From Dokdonia pacifica (lineage in GTDB: Bacteria > Bacteroidota > Bacteroidia > Flavobacteriales > Flavobacteriaceae), in NCBI RefSeq assembly GCF_900188275.1, contig NZ_FZNY01000006.1:248001-312000 (forward strand): DNA of 64,000 nucleotides, given 5' to 3'. Under the pieces are notes generated by a model, which was given only the letters and a program-made list of their open reading frames with translations, searched no databases and was not told the DNA's origin. Of the stretch, positions 1,982 through 21,643 are shown one piece after another; the stretch's first letter is position 1; every line of letters begins with the position of its first letter. Made by a program: the position numbers and the translations under genes.

Positions 1982-3001
1982 TTATTTACTACGTACTTTT
2001 TGCTCCCAAGTCCATGCAGATGCCATGGCTTCATCAAGACTACTATTTGCTTTCCAACCAAGATCGTGATTTGCTTTGTGCGTATCTGCATAGGCAGCAA
2101 TAACATCTCCTTCTCGTTTATCGACAATTTTGTAATTAAGTGATGTATTTGTAGCTTTTTCAAAAGAAGTGATTACTTCCAGAACAGAACTTCCAACACC
2201 TGTACCTACATTAAAGACCTCGTAGTTGTCTTTATTTTTATCTTGTAGCAAACGTTCTAGTGCTACTACATGAGCTTTTGCTAAGTCTACTACGTGAATA
2301 TAATCTCTAATGGCTGTACCATCTGGAGTAGGGTAGGTATCTCCAAATACAGATAATTGATCTCTTAGTCCTATAGCTGTTTGCGTAATAAATGGTACTA
2401 AGTTTTGTGGTACGCCTATAGGTAGTTCTCCAATCTCTGCAGATGGATGTGCTCCAATAGGATTAAAATAGCGTAGTGATATTGCTTTAAGATGTGATGT
2501 AATCTTACAGGTATCTCTTATAATTTCTTCTCCAATTTGTTTGGTATTACCATAGGGAGACTCAGCAGGTTTTACAGGGGCATTTTCTGTAATGGGTAAT
2601 TCATCTGCTTGGCCATATACGGTACAAGAAGAACTAAAAATAAAACTGGCTTTATCCTTTTTTTGTAATTCTTGAAGAATGTAAATTAATGTTGCGATAT
2701 TATTTTCATAATATAACAGCGGTTCTTTTACACTTTCGCCTACAGCCTTGGATGCTGCAAAATGAATCACTCCTGCAATATCTTGATGTCTATTAAAAAA
2801 GTCATTTACTTTAGATTTTTCTCTTAGATCAAACTCTTCAAAAATAGGTGTGATCCCTGTGATGTTTGTGATCCCTTTTAAGACCTCTTTTGACGAGTTA
2901 GAACAGTTATCTATAATAACCACTTCATGTCCATTATTTTGTAATTCTACAACGGTATGAGATCCTATAAAACCTAATCCTCCAGTAACGATTATTTTCA
3001 T
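1982..3001 (-). CDS. galE: UDP-glucose 4-epimerase
   Basis: GalE interconverts UDP-galactose and UDP-glucose, the last step specific to the Leloir pathway, in the cytoplasm. The 339-aa length is typical. The NAD-binding Rossmann motif GGLGFIGSH lies at residues 7-15, the catalytic Ser/Thr region SSSCTVYG at 123-130, and the YxxxK pair is Y150/K154 (YGNTK). It is the last gene of the minus-strand galactoside locus, 87 nt after the symporter; the gap holds a copy of the genome palindrome and a -7-like TATCTTTG (3028-3035), so it may have its own promoter. With galK and galT at 19447-21643 the window carries a complete Leloir set except a mutarotase. Confidence 0.95.
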   Translation of the reverse strand: MKIIVTGGLGFIGSHTVVELQNNGHEVVIIDNCSNSSKEVLKGITNITGITPIFEEFDLREKSKVNDFFNRHQDIAGVIHFAASKAVGESVKEPLLYYENNIATLIYILQELQKKDKASFIFSSSCTVYGQADELPITENAPVKPAESPYGNTKQIGEEIIRDTCKITSHLKAISLRYFNPIGAHPSAEIGELPIGVPQNLVPFITQTAIGLRDQLSVFGDTYPTPDGTAIRDYIHVVDLAKAHVVALERLLQDKNKDNYEVFNVGTGVGSSVLEVITSFEKATNTSLNYKIVDKREGDVIAAYADTHKANHDLGWKANSSLDEAMASAWTWEQKVRSK

Positions 3002-3027
3002 CTATTTTTCATGATTTTTTAACTGTA

Positions 3028-3035
3028 CAAAGATA
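3028..3035 (-). promoter_or_regulatory. Candidate -7 element of galE
   Basis: On the minus strand this reads TATCTTTG, an exact match to the Bacteroidota -7 consensus TAnnTTTG, 26 nt before the galE ATG. No clear -33 TTG was found at the usual spacing, so support is moderate. Confidence 0.4.
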
Positions 3036-3053
3036 CAGTATGTATTGTGTTTT

Positions 3054-3075
3054 ATACGCTTTCGCGAAAGCGTAT
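3054..3075. repeat. Genome palindrome, intergenic copy
   Basis: A perfect inverted repeat containing TACGCTTTCGCGAAAGCGTA plus one more matching base on each side. It lies between the symporter stop and the galE start. It is one of about 14 copies in the window. Confidence 0.9.
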
Positions 3076-3088
3076 CATGAACTTTTAT

Positions 3089-4732
3089 TTAAAATATTAA
3101 GTAAGTACTCAGTACTAACAGCGTAATAAGTCCTCCTACGATATAGGCATACTTCCATGGGGTTGTATCTATAGCTTCTGTAGTTTCTGGAACATAAATA
3201 TCTGTTTTTGGTTTTATCATTCCAATCACTAGCATGATAATAATATTAACTACAAATAGAATTCCCATTACATGTAAAAAATGAGGAAAAGCTTCAGCTT
3301 TGATAAGAGCTAACTCAGCGATGTCAGTTATTCCATTTGTTTCAGCTTCAGCAAGAGCTGCTTTTTCATATGTAGGTCTCATGAATATTGTACAAACGTA
3401 CATAATAACACCAGCAATCATAACAACTTTGGCTCCAAGGGCAGGTACTCTTTTTGTAAGTATTCCAATAATAACAACGGCTAAAATAGGAACACTTAAA
3501 CTTCCTAATGCTTGTTGGATGTAGTCAAATAATCCCGCTGGAGCATTGGCTATAAATGGCGCAATGATCATCGATACAATGGCCACTAATAGTCCAAATA
3601 ATTTCCCTGCTTTTACGGTTTGATGCTCTGATGCATCTTTTTTGAAAAACTTTTTATAAAGGTCAAATCCAAATAGCGTAGCACTACTATTTAATAAACT
3701 ATTAAAGGAACTTAAAACGGCTCCAAAGAGTACGGCTGCAAAAAATCCTAATAAGGCTGGAGGCAATACTTCTTTTACTAATTGCGGATACGCTTGATCA
3801 GCAGAACTAAGCTCTCCATTAAATACATTCCAAGCGATGATACCAGGAAGTACTACAATTACTGGAATTAAGAATTTTACGAAAGCAGCAAGCATCATTC
3901 CTTTCTGTCCTTCTTTTAAACTTTTGGCTCCAAATACACGCTGTAAAATAGATTGGTTCGTACCCCAATAGTACATTTGTGCAATCATCATTCCTGTAAA
4001 GATCGTTCCTACGGGAATGGATGAGGTGGCATCTCCAGTAACATCAAATTTATCTTGGTTTTCTGTCCATAGTGTACTAAGTCCTGCAAACATATCTCCA
4101 TCTCCAATGAGTTTTAAACCAAAATATGGGATTAATAATCCTCCTATTAATAATCCAATAGCATTGATCAAATCAGAAACCGCAACGGCTTTAAGTCCTC
4201 CAAAAATAGCATATACAATTCCTATCAGACCGATACTCCAAACACACAAAGCAATTACTGATGATTCTTCCCAACCTAGCATACTAGGTAAATCAAACAT
4301 AGTACTAAAGGCTAAAGATCCAGAATAAAGGATGGTAGGGAGTAATACAATGGCAAAGGCTATTAAGAATAATACAGATAAAATAGCTTTTGTATTTTCA
4401 TCAAAGCGTTTTTCTATAAACTCAGGAATGGTGGTAATTCCTCCTTTCATATACTTTGGAAGAAACCATACTGCGGTAATCACCATAGCTATGGCGGCAA
4501 GTGTTTCCCATGCCATTACAAGAATTCCTTCGCTAAAGGCTTGACCATTTAGCCCTACAATTTGCTCTGCAGATAAGTTGGTGAGTAATAATGATCCTGC
4601 AATAGTAATGGCGCCAAGACTTCTTCCTCCTAAATAATATCCGTCTGCAGATTTTTCATCGGTTCCTCTTGTTTTCCACCAAGCAAATCCTGCTACTAAT
4701 AGTGTAAATCCAATAAATGAAATGATTCCCAT
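3089..4732 (-). CDS. Sodium/solute symporter (SSS family, SglT-like)
   Basis: A 547-aa inner-membrane protein with about 14 hydrophobic segments. The N-terminal part (YYLGGRSLGAITIAGSLLLT, then NLSAEQIVGLNGQAFSEG) and TIPEFIEKRF are the pattern I know from sodium/galactose symporters such as Vibrio SglT, so sodium-driven uptake of galactose or a galactoside is the likely role. It sits between the GlpK-GlpD fusion and galE, which supports a galactoside or galactosyl-glycerol substrate. Since the neighbouring alpha-galactosidase has no signal peptide, this carrier may bring in the intact glycoside. Substrate assignment is inference; the family call is firm. Confidence 0.88.
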   Translation of the reverse strand: MGIISFIGFTLLVAGFAWWKTRGTDEKSADGYYLGGRSLGAITIAGSLLLTNLSAEQIVGLNGQAFSEGILVMAWETLAAIAMVITAVWFLPKYMKGGITTIPEFIEKRFDENTKAILSVLFLIAFAIVLLPTILYSGSLAFSTMFDLPSMLGWEESSVIALCVWSIGLIGIVYAIFGGLKAVAVSDLINAIGLLIGGLLIPYFGLKLIGDGDMFAGLSTLWTENQDKFDVTGDATSSIPVGTIFTGMMIAQMYYWGTNQSILQRVFGAKSLKEGQKGMMLAAFVKFLIPVIVVLPGIIAWNVFNGELSSADQAYPQLVKEVLPPALLGFFAAVLFGAVLSSFNSLLNSSATLFGFDLYKKFFKKDASEHQTVKAGKLFGLLVAIVSMIIAPFIANAPAGLFDYIQQALGSLSVPILAVVIIGILTKRVPALGAKVVMIAGVIMYVCTIFMRPTYEKAALAEAETNGITDIAELALIKAEAFPHFLHVMGILFVVNIIIMLVIGMIKPKTDIYVPETTEAIDTTPWKYAYIVGGLITLLVLSTYLIF

Positions 4733-4800
4733 AGGTTGTTTAGTTTATAGTGTTGCAGTGAAAATATGAAATTTCATTGAATATAAGGTTGCTTTTTGAG

Positions 4801-4820: not shown

Positions 4821-4833
4821 CCCTTTATGATTT

Positions 4834-4849: not shown

Positions 4850-4860
4850 TGTTTTGTTGC

Positions 4861-7800
4861 TTAGGCTTCCATTTCTTTATCATAGTAATGTGATGCATCT
4901 TTTACTAAAATATCAAGCCACTTGTTTTCATCGATTACTCGTGCTTCGTCCCAACCTAAATATTTGATGAGGTCTTCTTGTACGAGTTGTCTGTATTTGT
5001 GTACACTGTGTATATCAAAATAGAGTCTTCCCGTTCTTCGTACAAAGAAATCGGCTAAAGAATTCGTCATTTCATGATGGACACTATACCAAACTTCGGC
5101 ACGTATCAGGCGTTCTTCTACAGATTCATTTAAGAAATAATCTATTTTTTGTATGATATCATTTGCTTGTTTTCCATAGGTAGTCGCTAAATACTCGCTT
5201 TGGTTTTTATCTTTAACTCCTAGTGTTTTAAGTTGGGCTGCAATTTCTTTTTCATACGTATTTACCTCTTTTGTGTTTGACAAAGGGCTAGAGGTAAGAG
5301 GTATGCGTTCTGTATGCGATTTTACAAGATGTTCTTTTTTCTTCTCAGGTACATTTTTTAATACCGTATCAATAACACGTTGGGCCATTTTTCGATATCC
5401 TGTGAGTTTTCCTCCAGCAATAGAGATAAGTCCTGTTTCTGAAACAAAAATTTCATCTCTTCTAGAAAGTTCGGATGGGTCTTTTCCATCTTCATGAATA
5501 AGCGGTCGTAGCCCTGCCCAGTTAGATTCGATATCTTCTATAGTGAGTTGTACGCTAGGAAACATATTGTTTACGGCATCTAATAAATAGGTGGCATCAT
5601 CTTGTGTAGCGACCACTCTATTTAAGTTACCATTATAATTGGTATCTGTAGTTCCTACATAAGTAGATCTTCCTCTTGGAATTGCAAAAATCATACGTCC
5701 ATCGGGGACATCAAAATAAATAGATTGGGTCAATGGGAAACGTTCTCTTGAAAAAACAATGTGTACACCCTTGGTAAGGTGTAGGTGTTTGTTATTCATA
5801 GAGTGATCTTTCTCTCGTACTAAATCTACCCAAGGCCCTGCTGCCGAAACATAATTGTTTGCTTTTAATTTAAAACTGCTTTTGGTATTGTAATCATAAC
5901 AGTGTAGGTTTTTAATCTTTCCTTCATCATCATAATTGAAAGATTTCATTTCACAGTAGTTAATTACGCATGCTCCAAATGAAGCCGCTTTTTTCAAGAG
6001 CTCGATGGTAAGTCTAGCATCATCAGTACGATACTCTGCATAGTAACCACCACCTACAAGATGTTCTTTATTTAATAATGGTTCTTTACTAGCGGTTTCT
6101 TCTGTAGTAAGCATTTTACGTTTGTCTTCTCCTTCTACATTGGCAAGAAAATCATATACTTTTAATCCGATGGCAGTCATCATTTTACCATAGGTGCCTC
6201 CTTCAATAAGAGGAAGTAGCATTTTTTCAGGAACTACGAGATGAGGTGCTAATTTATGTACGGTTGCTCGTTCACTACCAGACTCTTTTACGAGTCCAAT
6301 TTCCATTTGTTTTAAGTAACGTAATCCTCCATGAATGAGTTTTGTAGATTTATTACTTGTGCCAGAGGCGAAATCATTTTTTTCTATCAAACATACATTC
6401 ATTCCTCTAGAGGATGCATCTAAAGCAATACCCGCTCCAGTAACACCACCGCCAATAATGATGAGGTCAAAACGCTCTTTTTTGGCTCTTTGCAATTGGG
6501 TGTCTCTATCTAAAATAGAAAAACGAATAGGTCCTTCTTCTTTAACAGATAGCATATTTTGATTAGAAGATTTCGTACGAGCTACTGCTTGTTTCCATCC
6601 TGTGTATTTCTTAGTACGCGTATATTCTGTAATTTCAGGAGTAAATAGAGTATCTACTTCTCGTAATTTTGCGATATCCTTTTTGGTCCATAAACCTGCT
6701 TGAATCCCTGCTAAAAATGCAGCGCCAAGTGCTGTTACTTCCAGCATTTTAGGACGATCTACCTCTACATTTAAAATATCCGATTGAAATTGCATGAGGT
6801 AATTATTAGCTGTAGCACCTCCATCTACTTTAAGCGATTTCATTTGCTTACCACTATCTTCTACCATAGCTTCTAGTACATCTCTAGATTGATATGCAAG
6901 AGCGTCTATGGTTGCTTTAATAATCTCATTTTTGCCAGAATCTAGTGTGAGACCATAAATGGCTCCTTTTGCTTTCATGTCCCAATGGGGTGCGCCTAAT
7001 CCTGCAAATGCAGGTACTACATACAAGTCGTCTGCAGCAATTGTTGCTTCACAAATGGCTTCGGTTTCTTTTGCGTGATCAATCACTTGGAGTTTATCTC
7101 GTAACCATTGCACAGAAGCTCCAGCTATAAATACACTTCCTTCTAAGGCATACTTTATATTGTCAGATTCTAAGCTTGCACAGAGTGTTGTTAAGAGACC
7201 ATTTTTTGATTGGTATGGTTTTTTACCTGTGTTCATAAGCATAAAACAACCGGTTCCGTAGGTGTTTTTAGCCATTCCCGATTTATAGCCTCCTTGACCA
7301 AATAAAGACGCCTGCTGATCACCTGCAACGCCATAAATAGGTATTTGATGTTCTTTGTACGTAAAATGTCCAAAATTAGATGAAGAATGCTGTACTTTAG
7401 GAAGCATTGCTTTAGGGATTTGTAAAGCATCTAGCATTTTGGCATCCCAGTCTAATTCTAAAATATTATAAAGTAATGTGCGTGATGCATTCGAATGATC
7501 GGTTACGTGATGTTTTCCTTGCGTAAATTTCCAAATTAGCCAACTGTCTATAGTTCCGAATAAGAGTTCTCCTTTTTCTGCTTTTTCTTGTGCACCATGT
7601 ACATGATCAAGAATCCATCGTGCTTTGGTTCCAGAAAAATAGGAATCTATGACAAGACCTGTATTTTTTGCAACATACTCTTCTAATCCTTGTGCTTTTA
7701 ATTGCTCACAAATACCAGAAGTACGTTTATCTAACCATACAATGGCATTGTGTATAGGTTCACCCGTGACTTTGTCCCATATAACTGTTGTTTCTCTTTG

Positions 7801-8043
7801 GTTGGTAATACCAATGGCTGCAATTTGATCTATAGATATAGAAGATTTTTCTATTACTTCTTCAAAAACTTCTTGTTGATGGGTTGCAATTTCTATCGGG
7901 TCATGTTCTACCCATCCTGGTTTAGGATAATGTTGAGTTAATTCTTTTTGTGCAATACCGCAGATAGTGCCTTTCTTATCAAATATTATAGCACGTGTGC
8001 TTGTAGTGCCTTGGTCAAAAGCAATAATATATTCTTTACTCAT
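4861..8043 (-). CDS. glpK-glpD: Fused glycerol kinase / FAD glycerol-3-phosphate dehydrogenase
   Basis: One uninterrupted 1060-aa ORF carries two complete enzymes. Residues 1 to about 490 are glycerol kinase (ATP-binding FDQGTTSTR at 9-17, GVAGDQQASLFGQGG, and the FGGY-type C-terminal region VDGGATANNYLMQFQSD). Residues about 497-1060 are an FAD-dependent glycerol-3-phosphate dehydrogenase (dinucleotide motif GGGVTGAG at 531-538, then KSTKLIHGGLRYL, SAAGPWVD, and the GlpD C-terminal domain). Stand-alone enzymes are about 500 and 555 aa, so nothing is missing and the linker is very short; Met497 probably marks the ancestral GlpD start. The product would convert glycerol to glycerol-3-phosphate and on to dihydroxyacetone phosphate, passing electrons to quinone at the membrane. 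It lies directly behind the alpha-galactosidase (26-nt gap). No glycerol facilitator gene is nearby. Confidence 0.93.
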   Translation of the reverse strand: MSKEYIIAFDQGTTSTRAIIFDKKGTICGIAQKELTQHYPKPGWVEHDPIEIATHQQEVFEEVIEKSSISIDQIAAIGITNQRETTVIWDKVTGEPIHNAIVWLDKRTSGICEQLKAQGLEEYVAKNTGLVIDSYFSGTKARWILDHVHGAQEKAEKGELLFGTIDSWLIWKFTQGKHHVTDHSNASRTLLYNILELDWDAKMLDALQIPKAMLPKVQHSSSNFGHFTYKEHQIPIYGVAGDQQASLFGQGGYKSGMAKNTYGTGCFMLMNTGKKPYQSKNGLLTTLCASLESDNIKYALEGSVFIAGASVQWLRDKLQVIDHAKETEAICEATIAADDLYVVPAFAGLGAPHWDMKAKGAIYGLTLDSGKNEIIKATIDALAYQSRDVLEAMVEDSGKQMKSLKVDGGATANNYLMQFQSDILNVEVDRPKMLEVTALGAAFLAGIQAGLWTKKDIAKLREVDTLFTPEITEYTRTKKYTGWKQAVARTKSSNQNMLSVKEEGPIRFSILDRDTQLQRAKKERFDLIIIGGGVTGAGIALDASSRGMNVCLIEKNDFASGTSNKSTKLIHGGLRYLKQMEIGLVKESGSERATVHKLAPHLVVPEKMLLPLIEGGTYGKMMTAIGLKVYDFLANVEGEDKRKMLTTEETASKEPLLNKEHLVGGGYYAEYRTDDARLTIELLKKAASFGACVINYCEMKSFNYDDEGKIKNLHCYDYNTKSSFKLKANNYVSAAGPWVDLVREKDHSMNNKHLHLTKGVHIVFSRERFPLTQSIYFDVPDGRMIFAIPRGRSTYVGTTDTNYNGNLNRVVATQDDATYLLDAVNNMFPSVQLTIEDIESNWAGLRPLIHEDGKDPSELSRRDEIFVSETGLISIAGGKLTGYRKMAQRVIDTVLKNVPEKKKEHLVKSHTERIPLTSSPLSNTKEVNTYEKEIAAQLKTLGVKDKNQSEYLATTYGKQANDIIQKIDYFLNESVEERLIRAEVWYSVHHEMTNSLADFFVRRTGRLYFDIHSVHKYRQLVQEDLIKYLGWDEARVIDENKWLDILVKDASHYYDKEMEA

Positions 8044-8069: not shown

Positions 8070-9836
8070 TTAAAGATAAGTATTCTTTGATAGTTTAATT
8101 ACTCCACAAGGAGGCACTTCCATTTTTAAAATTCCTTTTTGTAACTCTATAGATGATTCACTCAATACTTTTCCTGTACAGTTGTAGATTACGATATTAT
8201 AACTCCCTAAATTATGAGAGAAGTCTATAATCACATGATCCTCTAATTGACCGTTTATGATATCAATCTTTGTAGCCTTTGAAGTAATACGTGCAACATA
8301 ACTATCAAAAATTCCTATAATGTGTTGATCATTTAAAATGGACTCACAAATAGGATAATTTGCTAATGGTTTGTGAGGTGTAAACTCTCCTTTTAATAGT
8401 GTAGTGGCGTTTTGGTTCCAATAATTTGTGTAAAAACCTATCATACTCGCTTCTTCTTGCGATGCGTCTTTTAATAAAATAGACAATTGAGGTACTCCAA
8501 ATAATGTGTTTACTAGTTGTAGTGCTTTTATTTCTATAGGTTCTTCTTTATGATATGTAAACATATCACTATGTACAGCAGTATTCCCACAGATCATTTT
8601 TATGTCTGCAATACGTACGCGGTTCATCGCAGTATCTCCTGGGCAGTCAAACGCTCTAAACATATTTCCATATTTGCGCATTGCAGGTCCTGTATATTTC
8701 TGTCTAAATTCAATAACAATATCTTCTTTGATAGATTTTAAAGAAGTGATAACATCTGTTAATAATTTATCTACTGCTTCATTAATGGAAGAAAAATCTC
8801 TTCCATTTTCTTGTGTTAATACAGTGTCGGGATATGCTTTAAATTCATCAATAAAATCAAGTTTGAAGCCATCTAGATTCCATTCTTTAAGAGCTTTTGT
8901 ATATAACTCAATAAGGTGTGCCCTTACTTCAGGATATCTAGGATCAAACACTGGAGCCCATCGATGGTTTTCAGTTAAAAATTTCCCTTTAAATTTCTGG
9001 TAGGCCTTACTGTGCTTTCCACAAAAGGGTACTGAGTACCACAATGCCAACTTCATGCCAGTGTCTTGAACTGCTTTTGTAAATTCAGCAAGCTTTGGAA
9101 TGCGCTCTGGTTCCCAATCTCCAGTATAATCATAACCTCTATTGCTGTCTTTAGTTTGCCAACCATCATCTAGAATCATGAGTTTATATCCTAATTTTGA
9201 TGCTAATCTACATTCTTGCAATAGTACTTCAGGTTCCAAATTTTGATGAAATTGATACCAAGTTGAATACACAGGTTGTACTGCTAGTGCAGGTGTTGGA
9301 GTAGGAGTAAGGTGTTCAAATTGTTCCCACCAAAAGCTTATATTTTTTAATGCTTTAGAAAAATGATAGTTATTTTGATCTATTCGCAGTTCTGTGCGAT
9401 ATTCTGTAATTTCATGATGAGGTTCTGCAAATAATGTGATATGACAATATATACAATTGTCTTCTTCTCTATACAAGGCATTTAAAGAAGTTGTATTTAT
9501 TGCATCAGAGCATGCATATGTAAGAACATTTGAATCGTCATGTCCATATAGAGCTATTATAGGAGCATCTACAGAAATACGAGATTCCATATGATCTAAT
9601 TCCCAATCGTCCATAATACGTTTAGAAAAATCTGAAGTCGGTTTCCAAACTCCTTTCACATTGATGGCAGGGATTTTCCAACGTATTGTCACAGGTACAG
9701 GTACAAATGCTTTATAGGCTGAAAAATTAATAGTATAAATATCTATATTTCCTTCCTTAGTGTGTGGTGCTATTGTTACATCAAAAGCATCTGAATCTTT
9801 GATGATGTTAAAACGATGTGTAATTACTTCTTCCAT
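8070..9836 (-). CDS. Alpha-galactosidase, GH36-type, cytoplasmic
   Basis: A 588-aa enzyme expected to hydrolyse terminal alpha-galactosides. An N-terminal beta-sandwich (about 1-180) precedes a TIM barrel with LMILDDGWQTKD (DDGW at 223-226) and KLDFIDEF, where D327 in K-x-D matches the GH36 nucleophile position; an Asp in RAFDCPGD (396-401) is the likely acid/base. There is no signal peptide, so it acts in the cytoplasm on an imported substrate. It is somewhat shorter than the roughly 700-aa bacterial GH36 enzymes. It starts 9 nt after the FG-GAP gene and is followed by the GlpK-GlpD fusion, which suggests that its aglycone is glycerol. GH36 also holds raffinose-family enzymes, so specificity must be measured. 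Confidence 0.88.
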   Translation of the reverse strand: MEEVITHRFNIIKDSDAFDVTIAPHTKEGNIDIYTINFSAYKAFVPVPVTIRWKIPAINVKGVWKPTSDFSKRIMDDWELDHMESRISVDAPIIALYGHDDSNVLTYACSDAINTTSLNALYREEDNCIYCHITLFAEPHHEITEYRTELRIDQNNYHFSKALKNISFWWEQFEHLTPTPTPALAVQPVYSTWYQFHQNLEPEVLLQECRLASKLGYKLMILDDGWQTKDSNRGYDYTGDWEPERIPKLAEFTKAVQDTGMKLALWYSVPFCGKHSKAYQKFKGKFLTENHRWAPVFDPRYPEVRAHLIELYTKALKEWNLDGFKLDFIDEFKAYPDTVLTQENGRDFSSINEAVDKLLTDVITSLKSIKEDIVIEFRQKYTGPAMRKYGNMFRAFDCPGDTAMNRVRIADIKMICGNTAVHSDMFTYHKEEPIEIKALQLVNTLFGVPQLSILLKDASQEEASMIGFYTNYWNQNATTLLKGEFTPHKPLANYPICESILNDQHIIGIFDSYVARITSKATKIDIINGQLEDHVIIDFSHNLGSYNIVIYNCTGKVLSESSIELQKGILKMEVPPCGVIKLSKNTYL

Positions 9837-12800: not shown

Positions 12801-13184
12801 ATAAATGTCATCATATCCATCTGTATTGATATCTACAATACTTACCCCTGTAGTCCAACTGTTAGTAGCTATGCCAGAGATCGCAGTAATATCTTGAAAT
12901 TTCATTTCGCCTGTATTGAGGTATAATGTACTGGATACTTGATTTCCCGTAAATACAATATCAGGTAAACCATCATTGTTAAAATCACCAATACCGACGC
13001 CTCCTCCATTGTAGCAATACTGAAAATTGATAGCATTTATAGTATCATTCTCAGTAATCGTATTTTCAAATGTTATTTGAGAATGTGATGGGGAGACATA
13101 CGAAAACAGATGTGTTTTCGAATTTCTTTCTTGGCAAGACCAGAAAGATAGTGTGATAAGAAAAATATACAGGCTATTTTTCAA
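9846..13184 (-). CDS. FG-GAP / ASPIC-UnbV repeat lipoprotein
   Basis: A 1112-aa surface or periplasmic lipoprotein: lipobox cysteine C17 (LSFWSC), then many FG-GAP (VCBS) repeats with calcium-binding-like D-x-D/N-x-D-G loops (GDFNNDGLPDIVF, DYDGDGQKDLYI, DIDNDGDIDLIL). An ASPIC/UnbV domain sits mid-protein (GAKVTLWQQG, then YFGINTSPIDSLEVIWPDG). Such proteins are frequent partners of SusC/SusD pairs in marine flavobacteria, but their job is not established; ligand binding or scaffolding at the outer membrane is a reasonable guess. A palindrome copy at 12315-12330 is read in frame as GYAFAKAD. It follows susD after a 115-nt gap containing a hairpin. Confidence 0.85.
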   Translation of the reverse strand: MKNSLYIFLITLSFWSCQERNSKTHLFSYVSPSHSQITFENTITENDTINAINFQYCYNGGGVGIGDFNNDGLPDIVFTGNQVSSTLYLNTGEMKFQDITAISGIATNSWTTGVSIVDINTDGYDDIYINVGGVHCNNDCPNLLYINKGLNQDGIPTFEEKAAAYGLNDTQYSQQTLFFDYDSDHDLDAFIVRNGNTKYGRNNPIPKDKFPEHLKDVLLENKTPEGASHPVFEDVSLEKGITHKGFGLGIAITDYNNDLLPDIYITNDFITNDVLYINQGDAAGYAFAKADTDILTTQTYNAMGVDIADINNDALPDIAVVDMLPNDYERQKKMLGFNNYDKFLLSQRNGYTPQYVQNTLQIHNGVAQGTALPASEVGYKAGIAKTDWSWAPLIADYDGDGQKDLYITNGYVKDITDLDFINYSGQNNVFGTPEARTKKLQSLVNDLPGIYLPNYMFKNTGDISFEDVSNQWMESKDSFSNGAAYADLDGDGDLDIIVNNINTATFILENHTDKKAIDYIRIQLKGAPKNKTAIGAKVTLWQQGISQTQYQSVVKGYLSSVEPTIYFGINTSPIDSLEVIWPDGKVYTAKDITPNMTSVLSYKDAITASVSKKEKTTLIQKKEAILSYTHTENPANDFIQQSLLPSQFHANGPVIISGDIDGNVGDELFIGGNSKTSSQLLKEDDLGVYNVIQTFTSNSDVTSALFVDIDQDSDLDLYIGYGGTDARDLQDYILLNDGNGNFVIPKEVRLPEMGINTSSVSKIDYDQDGDDDLFITGGVLAGSYPLGMESYLLENKNKKYYIADTIKSTSGFLKNAIWADLSTNGNKELITVGHWNGITVHTIKDNTLEQLPIQFKNEEGKDVSMNGWWNTVKSSDIDNDGDIDLILGNQGINGFTKPTQEHPVYVYIKDFDSNGSVDPVLAQYFMHHQTSTLKPIHTRDDIFKQLVSLKKRYGTYSEFAKVDFKTLLNIQDLDNDTFNATTFESVYAENIGNNTFVIHPLPKECQRSSIKDILIEDIDQDGYKDVLFVGNDYTAESNYGRHDALIGVFLKGSDKGFTVINNQESGFIVPKQSNHITAAISKEKQIRIIATQHNEKICVFEINKGDSPTINE
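12315..12330. repeat. Genome palindrome inside the FG-GAP gene
   Basis: The 16-bp core CGCTTTCGCGAAAGCG is intact and translated as AFAKA on the minus strand. Confidence 0.9.
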
Positions 13185-13299: not shown

Positions 13300-14889
13300 T
13301 TAATATCCTTGGTTCTGAGTAAGATTAGGATTTGCTTGTAATTCGGTTAATGGAATCCATAAAACTTCGTCTTGACCTGGTGTAAAAAATGCAGCAGGAC
13401 CTGCTAAAGATTTAGGATGATTTCCACCAGCAACTGTAGATCCTTGTCCTAGGATATCGTCTGCGATTCCCCATCTTACAAGATCAAAGAAACGATGCCC
13501 TTCTCCTGTTAACTCCATTACACGTTCATCTCTTATTGCTTGACGTAATTCTGTTTGTGATATGTTATTAGGTAATTCGCTGATTTGCGCTCTATCTCGT
13601 ACTTGATTTACAAATCCAACTGCTTGTCCAGTAGCGCCACTTTCATTAAGAGCTTCTGCAAGCATTAGTAGAGCATCTGCATAACGTATGATACGCCAGT
13701 TAGTTCCAAGATCATTTCCAAACCCAGAAATGGCAGAACTAGATAATCCTGATTCGATACCTGTATATTTTACAGAAAAAATAGGTTCTACTCCTAATGC
13801 ATTTATCGTTTCTATACTAGGTGCAAAGTCTTCTAAATAAGGAACTCCTGCATATCCTGTTGCTCCTGGATAATCAAATACCATGGTTGCATTACGTCTT
13901 ACAGTATCTCCATTGGCGTCAAAAATGTCACGAATATGTGGGTTGATTACGTGACCTTGATCTAAACTTACATGAGGAGGTGAGTAATCGATATGCCAGT
14001 TTGATTGCGTTCCAGTAAGAGGCGCATCTGATCCCCATACAAAGTTATCTTGTCCTACATATTGTAATTCATAAATAGACTCATTATTATTTTCGACTGA
14101 TGAGTCAGAAGAAAAATTATCTCCATAATTAGCAGCTGGGAGTAGTGAATATCCTAATGTAGTAACAGTAGTTAAATCTGCAGCGGCATTTGCCCAATCT
14201 TGCATGTATAGGTAGGTTTTACCTCTTAATGCTAATGCAGCACCTCTAGTAGGACGACCCAAATCTTCAGATCCCCATGTGTCAGGTAATCTATTAACAG
14301 CCTCTGTTAAATCGGCAATGATTGCTTCATTAAACATTGCTGGAGTTGCATTTGATGGAAAGAATTCATCTGGATTTTGTGGATCTGGTGTTTGCATCAC
14401 TAAAGGAGCAGTTCCAAAAAGATTTAATAAATACCAGTTACAAAATGCCCGTTGGAAATGTGCTTGTCCTAAGATTTCATTTTGTACTTGTCCTGAAAGC
14501 ACCCCATTCTCTGCATCTTCTTCAATAATTTTATTGGCTCTGGAAATAGATTGATATAATTGTGGATATAAATCTACAGCCCATCTAGAAATACCAGGTT
14601 GTCCTTCTAGCGTAGACATTGTGGTATTTTGTTGAAAAGGGATCACATTATATGCATCAGAACGAAGCATAGCCCCTGTATGGATTACGCGTCCCCAGAA
14701 GAAAACGGCAGTAACTGGGTGATACATACCATTTACAGCGAGTCTAAAATCTGCTTCAGACTGAAAAAATTCAGGTTCTGCTACATTATTTGGATTTGAA
14801 ATGTTGAGGTCTTCCTCATCACAACTATAATAGAGTACTACAGCAAGTAGCAACATTATAAAGGGAAACAGTTTTTTAATTGTTTTCAT
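13300..14889 (-). CDS. SusD/RagB-family outer-membrane lipoprotein
   Basis: A 529-aa SusD homologue: lipobox cysteine C23 (VVLYYSC), followed by the typical SusD start (DEEDLNISNPN, FFQSEADFRLAVNGMY) and the conserved C-terminal part (RYADALLMLAEALNE, then RDERVMELTGEGHRFFDLVR). It is the substrate-capturing lid of the TonB-dependent SusC channel. It begins 20 nt after susC, so the two are cotranscribed. With a cytoplasmic alpha-galactosidase as the only glycosidase in the locus, its ligand is probably a small alpha-galactoside rather than a polysaccharide. Confidence 0.95.
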   Translation of the reverse strand: MKTIKKLFPFIMLLLAVVLYYSCDEEDLNISNPNNVAEPEFFQSEADFRLAVNGMYHPVTAVFFWGRVIHTGAMLRSDAYNVIPFQQNTTMSTLEGQPGISRWAVDLYPQLYQSISRANKIIEEDAENGVLSGQVQNEILGQAHFQRAFCNWYLLNLFGTAPLVMQTPDPQNPDEFFPSNATPAMFNEAIIADLTEAVNRLPDTWGSEDLGRPTRGAALALRGKTYLYMQDWANAAADLTTVTTLGYSLLPAANYGDNFSSDSSVENNNESIYELQYVGQDNFVWGSDAPLTGTQSNWHIDYSPPHVSLDQGHVINPHIRDIFDANGDTVRRNATMVFDYPGATGYAGVPYLEDFAPSIETINALGVEPIFSVKYTGIESGLSSSAISGFGNDLGTNWRIIRYADALLMLAEALNESGATGQAVGFVNQVRDRAQISELPNNISQTELRQAIRDERVMELTGEGHRFFDLVRWGIADDILGQGSTVAGGNHPKSLAGPAAFFTPGQDEVLWIPLTELQANPNLTQNQGY

Positions 14890-14909: not shown

Positions 14910-17900
14910 TTAAAATGACATTTGTATACCCATTGTAAAGGTGCGAGGTCTTGGTTGTGCTCTAATATCCAACCCTCTATCGAAGACAGCATCAGAAGCA
15001 AAAGTAGGATTGAACCCGAAAAACCCTCGATTTGTACCTAATCCAGCATTGTTAGATCCAACTTCTGGATCATAACCAGAATAATTTGTAATTGTAAATA
15101 GGTTTTGGACATTTACAAAAGCACGAGCATTTGAAACCCATTCTTTTCCTATAAAATCTGTAAAGTTATATCCTACTTCAATTGTTTTTAAACGAAGGAA
15201 AGAACCATCTTCTACAAAGAAATCTGAAGGTAATTGATTTCCAGCAGGATCTTGTACAGATACTCTAGGTAGGTTTGTATTTGGATTTTGAGGAGTAAAT
15301 GCATTTCGTACAATACCTAATTTATTGTCATCTAAGAAAAAGTATCCGAAGAACTTCGTCACATTATAAATTTCGTTTCCTTGTACACCATTGAAAAATG
15401 CTGATAAATCCCAATTCTTATAATTTGCAGAAAAATTAATACCATATGTGAAATCTGGGGTAGGATTTCCGATAGATGTTTGATCTTCGTCATTTATACG
15501 ACCATCACCATTAATATCAACTCTTCTAAAATCTCCTGGTTGTAATAAAGCTCTTCGGTCTGGGTCATTTGCAAGAAATGGATCATTATCTATCTCTGCT
15601 TGATCGTTATAAATCCCATCTGTTTTAAATCCAAAGAAGAAACCTAAAGGTTGTCCTACTTCAAAACGATTTGCTCTTAATCCTTCTTCATTATATGAAG
15701 GTCCTACAATTGGATTAGGAGAACTGGTAAGTTCATTTCTAATGGCAGATAAATTAAAACCTACATCAAAAGTAAAATCTCCTCCTTTATCATAGTGATA
15801 TTGTGCTTCAAATTCAAATCCTTTATTATTGATGGATGATGCATTTTGAAATACTGGAGTTACAGACCCATTTGAATCTGGAATCGCAACTGCTTGTATC
15901 ACATCATCATTATCTCTATTGAAATAATCTAAGCTTAACTTTAAATCATTATCAAGTAATGCAGCGTCTATTCCTACATTAACTGTTGTAGAGGTTTCGA
16001 AACTTAAAGTTGGGTCTACAATAGATGTAATTGCAAAACCTGGAATTTGTCCTGAAATACCGCCAACAGTGATAGGAGAGGTAGACCCTACAACAGATTG
16101 ATTTGAGAATGGCGGAACATTTTGCGAACCTAATTCTCCGTATCCAGCTCTAAGCTTTAAATTATTAAATAATCCATCTTTATTAAAGAAATCTTCATCA
16201 CTAATTACCCAACCTGCAGAAAAAGAAGGGAATGTTCCTTCATTAAATCCATCTGAGAATAGTGAGGTTCTATCACGACGTACAATAGCTGTGAACAGGT
16301 ATTTTTTGTTGAAGTTATAATTGATACGTCCAAAAACAGAGAAAAGTTTATTATCAAAACGACCTCCACCAGAGTTGATAATATTATCAGCAAACTGTGC
16401 AATATTTGTAATACTATTACTTGGCAAGCCTTCTGCATATATAGCAATACTATTATCAGTAATATCTTGACGAGCACCTCCTAATAAGACATCAAAGTTA
16501 TGATCTCCAACACTTTTCTTATAATTTAAAGTAGGTTCGACATTGGTTGCATAACGTTCTCCTCTAAATTCTGTTAAGTCATTGAGGGCATTAAGATTAA
16601 ATACTTGATCAAATACAGGTGAATCTAAAGTTGGTCCTCCTAAGTTGAAAATAGGTTGGAATGTATTTCTATAGAAACTAGTGTACTCAGTACCAATATT
16701 TAATTTGGCCGTAAGTCCTTCTATAATTTCATAAGAAAAGTTTAGGTTTCCTAAGAAGTTACGTTCTGTATTTTGGTCATTAACAAGTTGTGCTTGCGCA
16801 AATTTATTAGCTCCTCCAACACCGAAAACATTTCCATCTACAGCTTCAAAGCCTCCTAGATTTTCAGGAACATTTGCTCTGATAATTGGTACGGTACCTC
16901 CTTGATTACCAAATGCATTGTTTCGAGTAAAGCGGTTTTCAGAAAAACCAAATGATTCTTGAATTTTTAACTTGCCTAAATTAAATTCACTATTTAAACG
17001 TATATTTTTACGATTAAAATCTTCACTAATTAATAAACCTTCTTCATCATAATAATTTGCACTAAAGAAAAATCTTGAATTTTCACCCCCTCCAGATACA
17101 TTAAATCCATAATCTTGAATAATGCCTGAATTGATGGTTAGGTCTTGAAAATCAGTATTGATTCCTGGGTCTGCTATATTTCCTTCAAGTCCATCATTAA
17201 TGAGACGTTGATTAAGAAAGGCAATATATTCAGGGCCATTTAATAGGTCTAGTGTTCTTCCTTGGGTGTTAACTCCGCTTCTTATATCAATATTTACGGT
17301 AGTGGCAGTAGCGGTTTTCCCTCTATTAGTTGTTACAATAACTACTCCATTTGCTGCACGAGATCCATAAATTGCGGCTGAAGTTGCATCTTTTAACACT
17401 TGTATATTTACAATGTCTTTGGCATTTAAATAATTAATGTTGTCTGAGATGGCTCCATCTACTACATATAAAGGCGCAGAGTTGGTTAAAGAACTTACAC
17501 CACGTACAAAAACATTGGCAGGGCTCCCTGGAGCACCTCCAGCGGTTTCAACTTGCACACCAGCTAGTTTACCTTGTAGGGCAGAGGTAGGGTTTGCAGT
17601 TACAACTTGTGCAATATCTTCTGTTTTTATTTGTGAAATAGCACCTGTAACATCTCGTTTGGATTGAGATCCAAATCCTACAACAATTACTTCATCTAGA
17701 GCTGCGGCATCTATTTGCATTACGATGTCAATGGTTGTTTGTCCATTTACGGGTACTTCTTTTGTAGTAAAACCTGTATAAGAGAATACAATGATGGCAT
17801 CATCTGCAACATTTGAAAGTGTATAATTACCATCAAAATCAGTAGTTGTTCCATTTTGAGTGCCCTTAACAAGAATATTTACCCCAGGTAATGGTCCTAA

Positions 17901-18002
17901 TTCTTCAGTCACAGTTCCAGTTATTGTCTGTTGTGCATACAAACAACTAGAAATGATGACCAGAAGAAGCGTAACAATGGGTTTGAGTTTTGTTAGATTC
18001 AT
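14910..18002 (-). CDS. SusC/RagA-family TonB-dependent receptor
   Basis: I chose the ATG at 18002 (1030 aa, MNLTKLKPIVTLLLVIISS) because it gives a compact signal peptide; the upstream ATG at 18032 would add ten residues. After cleavage near CLYAQ come a carboxypeptidase-like domain (GTVTEELGPLPGVNILVKG), a plug (VVGFGSQSKRDVTGAISQI) and a long beta-barrel ending with an aromatic residue (MGIQMSF). It is the outer-membrane channel of a SusCD pair powered by TonB. It heads the minus-strand galactoside operon; a predicted promoter and operator lie at 18077-18091. Confidence 0.95.
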   Translation of the reverse strand: MNLTKLKPIVTLLLVIISSCLYAQQTITGTVTEELGPLPGVNILVKGTQNGTTTDFDGNYTLSNVADDAIIVFSYTGFTTKEVPVNGQTTIDIVMQIDAAALDEVIVVGFGSQSKRDVTGAISQIKTEDIAQVVTANPTSALQGKLAGVQVETAGGAPGSPANVFVRGVSSLTNSAPLYVVDGAISDNINYLNAKDIVNIQVLKDATSAAIYGSRAANGVVIVTTNRGKTATATTVNIDIRSGVNTQGRTLDLLNGPEYIAFLNQRLINDGLEGNIADPGINTDFQDLTINSGIIQDYGFNVSGGGENSRFFFSANYYDEEGLLISEDFNRKNIRLNSEFNLGKLKIQESFGFSENRFTRNNAFGNQGGTVPIIRANVPENLGGFEAVDGNVFGVGGANKFAQAQLVNDQNTERNFLGNLNFSYEIIEGLTAKLNIGTEYTSFYRNTFQPIFNLGGPTLDSPVFDQVFNLNALNDLTEFRGERYATNVEPTLNYKKSVGDHNFDVLLGGARQDITDNSIAIYAEGLPSNSITNIAQFADNIINSGGGRFDNKLFSVFGRINYNFNKKYLFTAIVRRDRTSLFSDGFNEGTFPSFSAGWVISDEDFFNKDGLFNNLKLRAGYGELGSQNVPPFSNQSVVGSTSPITVGGISGQIPGFAITSIVDPTLSFETSTTVNVGIDAALLDNDLKLSLDYFNRDNDDVIQAVAIPDSNGSVTPVFQNASSINNKGFEFEAQYHYDKGGDFTFDVGFNLSAIRNELTSSPNPIVGPSYNEEGLRANRFEVGQPLGFFFGFKTDGIYNDQAEIDNDPFLANDPDRRALLQPGDFRRVDINGDGRINDEDQTSIGNPTPDFTYGINFSANYKNWDLSAFFNGVQGNEIYNVTKFFGYFFLDDNKLGIVRNAFTPQNPNTNLPRVSVQDPAGNQLPSDFFVEDGSFLRLKTIEVGYNFTDFIGKEWVSNARAFVNVQNLFTITNYSGYDPEVGSNNAGLGTNRGFFGFNPTFASDAVFDRGLDIRAQPRPRTFTMGIQMSF

Positions 18003-18076
18003 ACAATTGGTTTTTATAAATTGATTATACATGCTTGGTTAATTTGTAACATTTATCATGCTATGATACTCTATGC

Positions 18077-18091
18077 TACTTTTCAAAAGTA
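18077..18091. promoter_or_regulatory. Candidate GntR operator overlapping the susC -7 element
   Basis: TACTTTTCAAAAGTA is a 15-bp near-perfect palindrome of the form TACTTT-N3-AAAGTA, the same form as the site in front of the regulator gene at 19267-19281. On the minus strand positions 18091-18084 read TACTTTTG, an exact match to TAnnTTTG, about 80 nt before the susC start. A repressor bound here would block transcription. No good -33 element was found. Confidence 0.55.
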
Positions 18092-18233: not shown

Positions 18234-19250
18234 TTATAGAGAATTTCTTTGACTTAAGTGAGTAGGGATAGTTTCTTGAATAGGCGTACCCTCTTTTACA
18301 TATAGAGCTGCCTTTTTTGCCATTAAGGTAAAATCAGTAGAGATTGTTGATATTCCTCCGAATGCAATTTCTTTTACAATATTGTCATCGTGGGCTAATA
18401 TTCCGATATCCTGTCCAATTCTATATTCGAGTTTTCTAGCATCTTTTAGAATTTGCCAGAGACTTGAATCTGCAATAGTGAAAAAAGCAGTTCTTTTTTT
18501 AAGTAATTTAGATCGATAATCAGGGAAAACTTCTCCTTTAATATTATAATCTGTTATAAATCGTTGAAATGCTTTCAAGATTCCTTTTGGTAAGTCTGTA
18601 TTTGCTTTAAAGAATAGGATCATTTTGTCATATTCTTTAAGACGAGGCGCAAGTTCTACTAATTTTTTATAGGTTACTTCCTCAAATTCTTGTGTTATAT
18701 AAGAATAGGTTGGTGGTAATTTTAAATATCGATCTACAATTAAAAGTCTATCAGATGGTATGGCTTCCATGAGAGGGATAACTTCAGGATCTTGAATAGG
18801 GGCAATTACATATGCACCATATTTTCGATTAATATTATCCATGATCGTTTTGAAAAGGCTTAGATTGTTATGGTGAAAAAAAACATCAATTTGAAACCGC
18901 TTGCCTAATTCTTTTCTAAAAGTGTTGTAAAAATCTTCCTGAAAACTATGAAATGCAAATAGGATCAATGCTACTTTTAAAGTCGTATTTGTTTCTTGAC
19001 TTATTATAAAATACCCTTTTAGGTTTTTAGATTCTACAAGTCCTCGTTCTTTTAACTCTGTATATGCTTTTACAATGGTCTTGCGAGCATAACCTATTTC
19101 TGCAACCATTACATTAATAGAGGGTAGTTTATCACCCACAGTGAGAACACCAGCATCTATAGCATTCATAATCCCATGAACAATCTGCTCATGCTTAGAA
19201 ATAGATGGGATATGTTGTAAATCATATATTTTTTCAAATAACGAAGACAT
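18234..19250 (-). CDS. GntR-family regulator with periplasmic-binding-protein-like sensor domain
   Basis: A 338-aa regulator. Residues about 1-85 are a GntR winged helix (IVHGIMNAIDAGVLTVGDKL, PSINVMVAEIGYARKTIVKA). The rest (TTLKVALILFAFHSFQEDFY, YGAYVIAPIQDPEVIPLMEA, IGILAHDDNIVKEIAFGGIS) is a LacI/periplasmic-binding-like ligand domain, an arrangement known from AraR-type sugar regulators. It lies between susC and the divergent galK-galT pair, so it most likely senses a galactoside, galactose or glycerol compound and controls the locus. The sites at 18077-18091 and 19267-19281 suggest repression of susC and of itself. Confidence 0.88.
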   Translation of the reverse strand: MSSLFEKIYDLQHIPSISKHEQIVHGIMNAIDAGVLTVGDKLPSINVMVAEIGYARKTIVKAYTELKERGLVESKNLKGYFIISQETNTTLKVALILFAFHSFQEDFYNTFRKELGKRFQIDVFFHHNNLSLFKTIMDNINRKYGAYVIAPIQDPEVIPLMEAIPSDRLLIVDRYLKLPPTYSYITQEFEEVTYKKLVELAPRLKEYDKMILFFKANTDLPKGILKAFQRFITDYNIKGEVFPDYRSKLLKKRTAFFTIADSSLWQILKDARKLEYRIGQDIGILAHDDNIVKEIAFGGISTISTDFTLMAKKAALYVKEGTPIQETIPTHLSQRNSL

Positions 19251-19266
19251 AAGGTATGATATAAGA

Positions 19267-19281
19267 TACTTTGCTAAAGTA
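19267..19281. promoter_or_regulatory. Candidate GntR operator overlapping the regulator's own -7 element
   Basis: TACTTTGCTAAAGTA is TACTTT-N3-AAAGTA, identical in form to the site upstream of susC; one further base pairs on each side. On the minus strand 19281-19274 reads TACTTTAG, one base off TAnnTTTG, and TTTTG lies 20 nt upstream (19306-19302). The regulator start is only 16 nt away, so autorepression is expected. Confidence 0.6.
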
Positions 19282-19397
19282 TTATTTTAATAAGTATAAC
19301 TCAAAATAAACTAGAAATTCTATATTGATATCTTTCTAAAATAAGGAATATTCAAACTTTAATAGCTATTGTAGATCGTTTTATTGCATAGGTTTGT

Positions 19398-19405
19398 TAT
19401 TTTTG
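19398..19405 (+). promoter_or_regulatory. Candidate galK-galT -7 element
   Basis: TATTTTTG matches TAnnTTTG exactly and lies 41 nt before the galK start. TTG triplets upstream are not at the normal spacing, so this is a -7 match only. Confidence 0.42.
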
Positions 19406-19446
19406 TGAGTAGACTAGAGTAGCACAGATTTTGAAATCTAGTATTT

Positions 19447-20598
19447 ATGATTATGAATAAACAAATAGCTTCTTTCTTAAACTCTTTTGAAAGTCAATTA
19501 AAAGTTATGTCGCCAGGTAGAATTAATTTTATTGGCGAACATACTGATTATAATAATGGCTTTGTACTTCCTGCTGCTATCGATAAGAAGATTACATTCT
19601 CTTTTAGGAAATCAGTGTCTAAAACCCAGTGCACTATTTTAAGTACTACATATCAAAAGCTTTTCACTTTCTCTATTGATAAAATTTCTATTAGAGAAGC
19701 TACTTGGGAGAATTATATTGTAGGTGTCGTTGCAGAAATGCAAAAAATAATTAGTGGTATAGGCGCTTTTGATTGTATTATAGATAGTGATCTTCCATTG
19801 GGAAGTGGTGTGAGTTCTTCTGCGGCATTAGAATGCGGCATTGCATATGGGCTTAATGCACTTTTTAAACTGAACCTTTCTACATTACAAATGATAGAAA
19901 TATCACAAAGAGCAGAGCATGAGTATGTAGGGACTAAATGCGGTATTATGGATCAATATGCTGTTATGAAAAGTAAAGAAGGGGCTGTATTACTTTTAGA
20001 TTGTTTAATTAATAAGCATTCATATATAGAAGCAAGTTTTGATCCCTATGTCATTGTTCTTTTAAATACAAATGTATCTCACAATCTAGCTTCTAGTGAA
20101 TATAATACACGTAGGGAAGAATGTGAATTTGTTGTAAATACGATTAGAAAAGATAGTAATAATGTGTCTTCTTTACGAGATGTCACATTCTTGCAATTAC
20201 AACAATATAAAGATCAATTGTCAAAAAATCATTATGAAAGAGCTGCTTATGTTCTAGAAGAAAATGAACGTGTCTTAGCCGCAGTTGAGTGTTTGAAAAC
20301 AGGAAATTTAAAGCAATTTGGTTCGTTGATGTATGCTTCTCATAGAGGGTTGCAATATCAATATGATGTGAGTTGCCCTGAGTTAGATTTCTTAGTAGAT
20401 TTTTCTGAAACTAATAAAGAAATTCTTGGTTCAAGGATGATGGGCGGTGGTTTTGGTGGGTGTACCATCAATTTAATTCATAAAAATGCTGTAGATGATT
20501 TTGTTAAAGAAGCTTCAAAAGCGTATAAAGAAAAATTTGGTATTGCATTAACTTCATTTGTAACTGTTCCTAGTCAAGGAACTTCAATGTATTCATAA
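19447..20598 (+). CDS. galK: Galactokinase
   Basis: GalK phosphorylates galactose at C1 with ATP in the cytoplasm. The 383-aa length is normal. The substrate signature GRINFIGEHTDYNNG lies at 24-38, the GHMP ATP-binding motif LPLGSGVSSSAALE at 116-129, and the C-terminal GHMP motif MMGGGFGGCTI is present. The ORF opens ATG ATT ATG AAT, so the start could be the first or third codon. It runs into galT with a 1-nt gap, so the pair is translationally linked. Divergent from the GntR regulator. Confidence 0.97.
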   Translation: MIMNKQIASFLNSFESQLKVMSPGRINFIGEHTDYNNGFVLPAAIDKKITFSFRKSVSKTQCTILSTTYQKLFTFSIDKISIREATWENYIVGVVAEMQKIISGIGAFDCIIDSDLPLGSGVSSSAALECGIAYGLNALFKLNLSTLQMIEISQRAEHEYVGTKCGIMDQYAVMKSKEGAVLLLDCLINKHSYIEASFDPYVIVLLNTNVSHNLASSEYNTRREECEFVVNTIRKDSNNVSSLRDVTFLQLQQYKDQLSKNHYERAAYVLEENERVLAAVECLKTGNLKQFGSLMYASHRGLQYQYDVSCPELDFLVDFSETNKEILGSRMMGGGFGGCTINLIHKNAVDDFVKEASKAYKEKFGIALTSFVTVPSQGTSMYS

Positions 20599-20599
20599 T

Positions 20600-21643
20600 A
20601 TGGCGTCTTTACAGGAACAACCACATAGAAGATTTAATATTTTAACTGGAGAATGGATTCTTGTATCTCCGCATAGAACAAAACGACCGTGGCAAGGTAA
20701 AAATGAAGAGCCTTCATTATTGGCGACAGTAGCATATGATAAAAACTGTTATTTGTGCCCTGGTAATGAGAGAGCAGGAGGCGTTGTAAATCCAGATTAC
20801 AAAGCTCCTTATGCATTTACAAATGATTTTGCGGCTTTACTTTCAGACACATCTACATCAATGATAGAAGATGGTTTGCTACAAGCAAAAGGTGAGCTAG
20901 GAGAGTGTAGAGTAGTTTGTTTTTCAGAAAATCACTCTTTAACCTTGCCTCTTATGGAAGTAAAAAATATTATAAAAGTGATCTCTTTATGGCAAGACGA
21001 ATATGATGTATTAGGAAATAAACAACAAATTAATCATGTGCAAATTTTTGAAAACAAAGGAGCTATTATGGGATGTAGTAACCCGCATCCACATGGTCAA
21101 ATTTGGTCTCAGAGCACAATTCCTGAAGAAGTAATTAAAAAAACAGAAAGACAATTATCTTATTGGAAAAAAAATAATCGATCTCTTCTAGAAGATTATA
21201 TAAAGCAAGAACTTCAAGCAAAAGAGCGTATCATTTTTCAAAACGAGCACTTTGTCATTTTAGTCCCTTATTGGGCAATATGGCCTTATGAAACCATGAT
21301 TATTCCAAAGCGAAAAGTAACTGCAATTACAGGTTTGACTGAGGAAGAAAAAAAGAGTTTTGCAGAAGCAATTAAAAGACTTACCATTAAATACGATAAT
21401 ATTTTTCAAACCTCTTTTCCTTATTCTTCTGGAATTCATCAGGCACCTACCGATGGGAAAGAATATTCTGAATGGCATATGCATATGTCTTTTTATCCAC
21501 CATTATTGAGATCTGCGACAGTAAAGAAATTTATGGTTGGTTATGAATTATTTGCAAACCCGCAACGAGATATCACAGCAGAACAAGCAGCTGCTACTAT
21601 TCGGGATCAAAGTGAGATTCATTACACTCATAAGGCGTCTTAA
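20600..21643 (+). CDS. galT: Galactose-1-phosphate uridylyltransferase
   Basis: GalT exchanges UMP between UDP-glucose and galactose-1-phosphate. The 347-aa protein has the HIT-like active site NPHPHGQIWS (HPH at 163-165, the second His being the uridylylated residue), zinc-type cysteines C50 and C53 (CYLCPGN), and the C-terminal motif EWHMHMSFYPP. It completes the galK-galT operon; tRNA-Val follows 30 nt later. Confidence 0.97.
   Translation: MASLQEQPHRRFNILTGEWILVSPHRTKRPWQGKNEEPSLLATVAYDKNCYLCPGNERAGGVVNPDYKAPYAFTNDFAALLSDTSTSMIEDGLLQAKGELGECRVVCFSENHSLTLPLMEVKNIIKVISLWQDEYDVLGNKQQINHVQIFENKGAIMGCSNPHPHGQIWSQSTIPEEVIKKTERQLSYWKKNNRSLLEDYIKQELQAKERIIFQNEHFVILVPYWAIWPYETMIIPKRKVTAITGLTEEEKKSFAEAIKRLTIKYDNIFQTSFPYSSGIHQAPTDGKEYSEWHMHMSFYPPLLRSATVKKFMVGYELFANPQRDITAEQAAATIRDQSEIHYTHKAS

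Follow-up and report, generated by a model that had tools for sequence, protein, structure and literature searches.

A SusCD-type locus of Dokdonia pacifica predicted to import and catabolize an alpha-galactosyl-glycerol

We analyzed a 64,000-nucleotide stretch of the Dokdonia pacifica genome (contig NZ_FZNY01000006.1, positions 248,001 to 312,000; hereafter the window), which comes from an assembly of 5.52 Mb in 31 contigs. A SusCD locus at window positions 1982–21643 probably serves to take up and break down an alpha-galactosyl-glycerol that is small and soluble. The likeliest substrates are floridoside and/or isofloridoside, the known abundant alpha-galactosyl-glycerols of red algae, in which floridoside is a main soluble carbon store. 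A sequence-only reading of the same DNA had listed nine genes here. Model scans of the window's open frames (Pfam, NCBIfam/TIGR and PRK) confirmed all nine as open frames and added one that had been overlooked, an FG-GAP/UnbV lipoprotein gene in the gap between susD and the GH36-type gene.

In the pathway that we propose, SusC/SusD and the UnbV lipoprotein would carry the galactosyl-glycerol across the outer membrane, a vSGLT-like Na+ symporter would pass the heteroside uncleaved through the inner membrane, and a cytoplasmic GH36 enzyme would split it into galactose and glycerol. GalK, GalT and GalE would then convert galactose to glucose-1-phosphate, and a GlpK-GlpD fusion would convert glycerol to dihydroxyacetone phosphate, with a GntR regulator sensing either the heteroside or galactose. 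The most economical substrate to yield both galactose and glycerol through a single alpha-galactosidase step is an alpha-galactosyl-glycerol, which we regard as the best hypothesis.

The GH36 clade and its link to glycerol genes

The putative alpha-galactosidase (8070–9836, minus strand) scores 31.1 bits against Pfam Melibiase (cut-off 27), over residues 193–344 only, i.e. about 150 residues. The GH36 label is thus weak by sequence, yet we uphold it because the predicted structure agrees: the model adopts a GH36 fold over its full length and matches alpha-galactosidases. D327, the candidate nucleophile, aligns with D478 of AgaA and is invariant in 20/20 sequences, while invariance and spacing suggest D397 as a candidate acid/base. 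As the sequence-only reading had noted, the protein carries no export signal, and a hydrophobic N-terminus was found in none of 80 orthologs, a result that was unchanged between test lengths of 45 and 60 residues, applied to orthologs and distant homologs alike. Together with the conserved sugar site of the symporter (see below), this supports the earlier proposal that a small alpha-galactoside is hydrolyzed in the cytoplasm. A distant set of this GH36 (L037–L042; 39–46% identical) has export-like N-termini and different neighbors, some of them sulfatase-like by eye.

These orthologs stem from the genome_contigs collection (84,980 species), in which a scan yielded 450 GH36 relatives; the best 80 were analyzed as related loci; the window's own genome possibly lies outside these 80, and several of them belong to genomes also covered by the family search described below. 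The closest named relative among them is an uncultured Dokdonia. At set identity thresholds, and with 8/80 loci ending at contig edges, the flanks contained the SSF symporter in 70 loci, susD in 66, susC in 65, the UnbV lipoprotein in 61, gntR in 56, glpD in 39, glpK in 38, galE in 17, galK in 7 and galT in 4. Since susC, susD, GH36 and SSF co-occur in 57/80 loci, the arrangement seen in the window is not a matter of chance. Relative to the Dokdonia locus L093, the GH36 protein (86% identical) and the UnbV lipoprotein (82%) differ more than the remaining locus genes (95–97%), as if the segment 8070–13184 had been exchanged or were evolving faster.

Both glpK and glpD lie near the GH36 gene in 38 of the 80 loci and are fused in 22 of these 38. 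Linkage was observed in 12/22 loci of Aquimarina, 5/8 of Maribacter, none of five from Zobellia and 9 of the 25 loci without a genus name, as well as in Dokdonia, Tenacibaculum, Flavivirga, Algibacter, Polaribacter, Cellulophaga, Mariniflexile, Gelidibacter and Kordia. The two genes are unlinked in single loci of Ulvibacterium, Poritiphilus, Flavobacterium, Pelagihabitans, Croceitalea and Flagellimonas and in two Saprospiraceae loci. Gene order is mostly GH36-glpKD-SSF in Dokdonia and Aquimarina, and GH36-SSF-glpKD elsewhere.

To judge how specific the glycerol link is, we searched 199 family genomes for this GH36 (match in 19), for any Melibiase (53) and for GlpK-GlpD (111 at E ≤ 1e-50; three candidates scored per genome, with a capped list of places), and counted listed glp places within 12 kb as proximal. 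Listed glp genes adjoin 7/14 members of the clade as opposed to 1/53 other Melibiase matches, which include weak ones and six distant homologs (Fisher p 3e-5). The difference persisted among genomes with listed glp genes (7/14 vs 1/28; p 8e-4), and a glp match anywhere in the genome occurred in 14/14 clade genomes vs 97/185 others (p 3e-4); as the rows share kinship, these p values serve as guides only. In a GlpK tree of 71 rows, built by a quick method that left 22 of its 68 inner branches open, the label linked or free needs at least six changes (three of them forced by starred branches), compared to 23.6 in shuffles. Maribacter and Cellulophaga rows sit among free GlpK and not with the main linked set. 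The simplest reading is that glp genes were recruited at least twice beside this GH36 clade. This recurrent and fairly specific link to glycerol kinase and dehydrogenase argues for glycerol as the aglycone. To that extent the earlier choice of floridoside stands; floridoside itself is indistinguishable here from isofloridoside or another galactosyl-glycerol.

The same counts bear on the view that the enzyme serves ordinary alpha-galactosides (melibiose, the raffinose family, galactomannan side chains), with the glycerol genes as a passenger operon. Such sugars are common GH36 substrates, and 42/80 loci are without linked glpK and glpD, so the earlier statement that every enzyme needed is present, though correct for the window, does not extend to these 42. 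We nevertheless consider this explanation unlikely: the glp linkage recurs from two separated GlpK sets and, counting listed glp places, is missing for 52/53 other Melibiase matches, while Pfam scans of one example from each of the 18 further gene families recurring in at least 5/80 loci revealed no sucrose, fructose or glucose enzymes. These 18 include unrelated or housekeeping families (histone deacetylase, PAP2, SurA-like, Tex, MetRS, NrtR, CNNM, DUF1501, YhhN and others), four whose examples gave no Pfam match or a repeat only, another SSF family, a nucleoside hydrolase, a GH2 LacZ family (5 loci) and a maltose/galactoside-type acetyltransferase. The acetyltransferase gene follows GH36 in 18 loci (e.g., L115:11748-12305), whose carriers include Zobellia amurskyensis, at a median gap of 11 bp; 17 of these 18 are without linked glpK. 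An acetyltransferase of the LacA kind would be in keeping with galactoside import.

The GlpK-GlpD fusion (4861–8043, minus strand) combines a glycerol kinase (PRK00047, 758 bits; TIGR01311, 691 bits, cut-off 590) with C-terminal DAO and DAO_C domains. Because the best NCBIfam scores of the GlpD part fall below their cut-offs (471 vs 840; 328 vs 360), we describe it as either an FAD-dependent glycerol-3-phosphate dehydrogenase or an oxidase. Apart from it, a single FGGY kinase turned up in the genome in the family search, on a different contig and 23% identical to the GlpK part, so that the fusion is the only GlpK recognized in this genome. No GlpF was recognized either, as both MIP channels found genome-wide carry NPARS rather than the NPARD of GlpF. 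In line with the earlier remark on a missing glpF, glycerol probably arises inside the cell. We rejected the fusion as a pathway marker: it is found without this GH36 in at least the genomes G148, G190, G085 and G144 and, judged by open frame, also in G075 and G025, and is therefore best seen as a general glycerol enzyme. With fusions lacking this GH36 at L075, L076 and L077 in other family genomes, it predates this locus or is more widely distributed. In G148, for which the family search found no GH36 of this clade, a cluster (L074:3-11595) combines an SSF symporter 76% identical to that of the window with the fusion, a GMC oxidoreductase, a Gfo/Idh enzyme, a pair of AP_endonuc_2 proteins and a 3-keto-disaccharide hydrolase. 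This cluster may provide an oxidative pathway acting on the same glycosyl-glycerol or on a sister compound.

Several observations weigh against a galactosyl-glycerol substrate. The Melibiase match is weak, though above cut-off, and for the GH36 model Foldseek ranks a GH36-type galactosaminidase first instead of an alpha-galactosidase. Linked glpK and glpD are missing from more than half of the related loci, as counted above, and the GlpK tree may also fit a single old linkage that was lost many times. The fusion without this GH36 is present in at least four family genomes, which partly bears out a counter-argument of the sequence-only reading itself, namely that the fusion might occur unlinked to alpha-galactosidase; SSF together with glpKD likewise occurs without GH36 at L074 and L078. 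Lastly, the sole exception among the other Melibiase matches, in G047, is an unrelated classical GH36 near glp genes. Its cluster (L207:212-11360) groups this GH36, which has all three Pfam domains and starts export-like, with glpD-glpK and a MIP channel, possibly another means of coupling the use of galactosides and glycerol.

Uptake, galactose metabolism and regulation

The symporter gene (3089–4732, minus strand; PRK10484, 719 bits) encodes an SSF protein of the SglT type, whose closest solved chain is vSGLT (PDB 2xq2). Taking eight positions to be the galactose contacts of vSGLT, and the alanine at 294 in the solved chain to be a K294A mutant, we found six contact residues retained (N64, Q69, E88, Y263, K294 and Q428) and two altered (S91A and N260Q). 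All eight positions are invariant among 71/71 symporter sequences, which speaks for one ligand, a compound bearing a galactosyl part. A second, different SSF family lies about 50 bp after GH36 in seven loci (L096:11771-13339 and six others), in some of which it replaces the usual symporter.

Might the locus and its regulator instead serve glycerol and an alpha-galactoside as nutrients in their own right, with the symporter importing glycerol or galactose? The occurrence of SSF and glpKD without GH36 at L074 and L078 would suit this arrangement, as would the likeness of the binding site to that of the galactose carrier vSGLT. However, SSF stands beside GH36 in 70/80 loci, 33 of these 70 being without glpK and glpD, and the intact galactoside has to enter the cell because GH36 has no export signal. 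We accordingly hold two separate nutrients to be very improbable.

At the outer membrane, susC (14910–18032, minus strand; TIGR04056, 785 bits) encodes a TonB-dependent transporter and adjoins susD (13300–14889, minus strand; PF07980, PF14322), which encodes a surface binding lipoprotein, with a carbohydrate-active enzyme gene alongside, as in SusCD loci generally. The additional gene (9846–13184, minus strand; TTG start; PF13517, PF07593) encodes a 1112-residue protein with a lipoprotein-like N-terminus, a probable third outer-membrane component. An exported polysaccharide-cutting hydrolase or lyase, as in a classical polysaccharide utilization locus (PUL), is absent, the signal-less GH36 being the sole hydrolase of the locus, in agreement with the earlier observation that no secreted glycosidase is encoded there.

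A galactolipid headgroup, digalactosyl-glycerol from digalactosyldiacylglycerol, would likewise give galactose and glycerol, by the action of an alpha- and then a beta-galactosidase. The sequence-only reading disfavored it for want of the latter, and indeed the window locus has no beta-galactosidase; the genome, however, holds a GH2 LacZ-type gene with a lipoprotein-like N-terminus on another contig (besides three weaker GH2 matches), and the recurring GH2 LacZ family (example L132) lies near 5/80 loci. Yet the terminal alpha-galactose would be removed first, in the cytoplasm, whereas the GH2 proteins of L132 and of D. pacifica itself (L175) start export-like. This headgroup, too, is a very unlikely substrate.

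For the galactose moiety of the proposed galactosyl-glycerol, the locus encodes a complete Leloir set with all three TIGR models above cut-off: galE (UDP-glucose 4-epimerase; 1982–3001, minus strand; TIGR01179, 399 bits), galK (galactokinase; 19447–20598, plus strand; TIGR00131, 302 bits) and galT (galactose-1-phosphate uridylyltransferase; 20600–21643, plus strand; TIGR00209, 491 bits). Within the genome, PF01087 matches galT alone, and a tRNA-Val gene follows at 21674.

The regulator gene (18234–19250, minus strand) encodes a GntR-type protein with a LacI-type effector domain (PF00392 and PF13377, Peripla_BP_3). When palindromes were counted across upstream regions, A/T runs dominated the result; with G/C required, TACTTTNNNAAAGTA ranked first. 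Exact copies of this candidate operator lie in the susC promoter (18077–18091), where it overlaps a box resembling the TAnnTTTG promoter consensus, and between the divergent gntR and galK genes (19267–19281). The genome contains seven exact copies (reversed control, two), three of them outside open reading frames, of which two are those in the susC and gntR/galK promoters. Across the 80 loci there were seven exact copies, and 31 with at most one mismatch vs about 22 in mononucleotide shuffles. Given its weak conservation in relatives, and since the promoter-like box takes in half of it, we regard TACTTTNNNAAAGTA as a hint only; its position between gntR and galK would place galKT in the regulon.

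Ecology and relation to known systems

Aquimarina is the commonest named carrier among the 80 loci. Several named carriers are sponge or coral isolates, which speaks against a red-algal substrate. Eleven of the 80 loci come from metagenome-assembled genomes (MAGs) whose naming style suggests an origin in the Weihai macroalgae study (PMC10233909); by sample code, nine would derive from red algae, one from Ulva and one from Saccharina. In that study, red algae yielded 1148/2584 genomes and 323/377 cultured Aquimarina strains, and the sample letters H and R are defined in two opposite ways, both denoting red algae. Relative to all genomes of the study, carriers were enriched in red algae (p 0.013); against macroalgal genomes only, the enrichment was not significant (p 0.18), a further point on the negative side. 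The red-algal MAG and Aquimarina origins fit a red-algal substrate circumstantially.

The main text of PMC10233909 contains neither 'floridoside' nor 'GH36', and in Arenibacter, according to PMC3721217, polymerase chain reaction detected no GH27 or GH36. In the open-licence PMC literature, work on floridoside, bacteria and alpha-galactosidase concerned algal metabolism and enzymatic synthesis; consistent with the sequence-only reading, we found there no description of a bacterial SusCD-type floridoside locus, nor any account of a GlpK/glycerol-3-phosphate dehydrogenase fusion in Flavobacteriia. Degradation of floridoside in red algae, as outlined in PMC8703398, involves alpha-galactosidase, GalT and glycerol enzymes, all shared with the window locus, but belongs to the alga's own storage metabolism as opposed to the bacterial uptake proposed here.

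Like the PULs of Bacteroidota, the locus comprises a susC-susD pair, a surface lipoprotein, a glycoside hydrolase and a local regulator; unlike them, it has no exported hydrolase, and its predicted substrate is a one-sugar glycerol heteroside, not a glycan. The locus type is known; the predicted substrate would be new. Melibiose and raffinose operons use a cytoplasmic GH36 and a dedicated symporter, an arrangement also predicted here, but the window differs in its distant GH36 subgroup, its SSF-type carrier, SusCD, and a glycerol module in place of sucrose and glucose enzymes. The E. coli yih operon catabolizes sulfoquinovosyl-glycerol by means of a GH31 enzyme; import of an alpha-glycosyl-glycerol and its cytoplasmic hydrolysis to free glycerol would be common to both, with GH36 and the Leloir pathway here vs GH31 and sulfoglycolysis there. 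The symporter, finally, shares six of the eight presumed contact residues with the Vibrio parahaemolyticus Na+/galactose symporter vSGLT (PDB 2xq2, 3dh4) and departs from it at S91 (A) and N260 (Q) in 71/71 sequences of its type.

More broadly, we see an even chance that marine Bacteroidota widely carry this locus as one dedicated to floridoside/isofloridoside, its SusCD system handling a compatible solute of algae and not a glycan. The downstream modules would be exchangeable (fused or split GlpKD, GalKT, a LacA-type acetyltransferase), and in one relative a 3-keto-hydrolase module would stand in for GH36. If so, the carbon of an algal osmolyte would reach the bacterial food web via a widespread SusCD locus, and the occurrence of this GH36 clade next to SusCD and SSF could serve as a gene marker for tracing substrate turnover in metagenomes. 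The finding would also widen SusCD systems from glycans to heterosides, and it gives Aquimarina, Zobellia, Maribacter and Algibacter loci that are uncharacterized a directly testable substrate.

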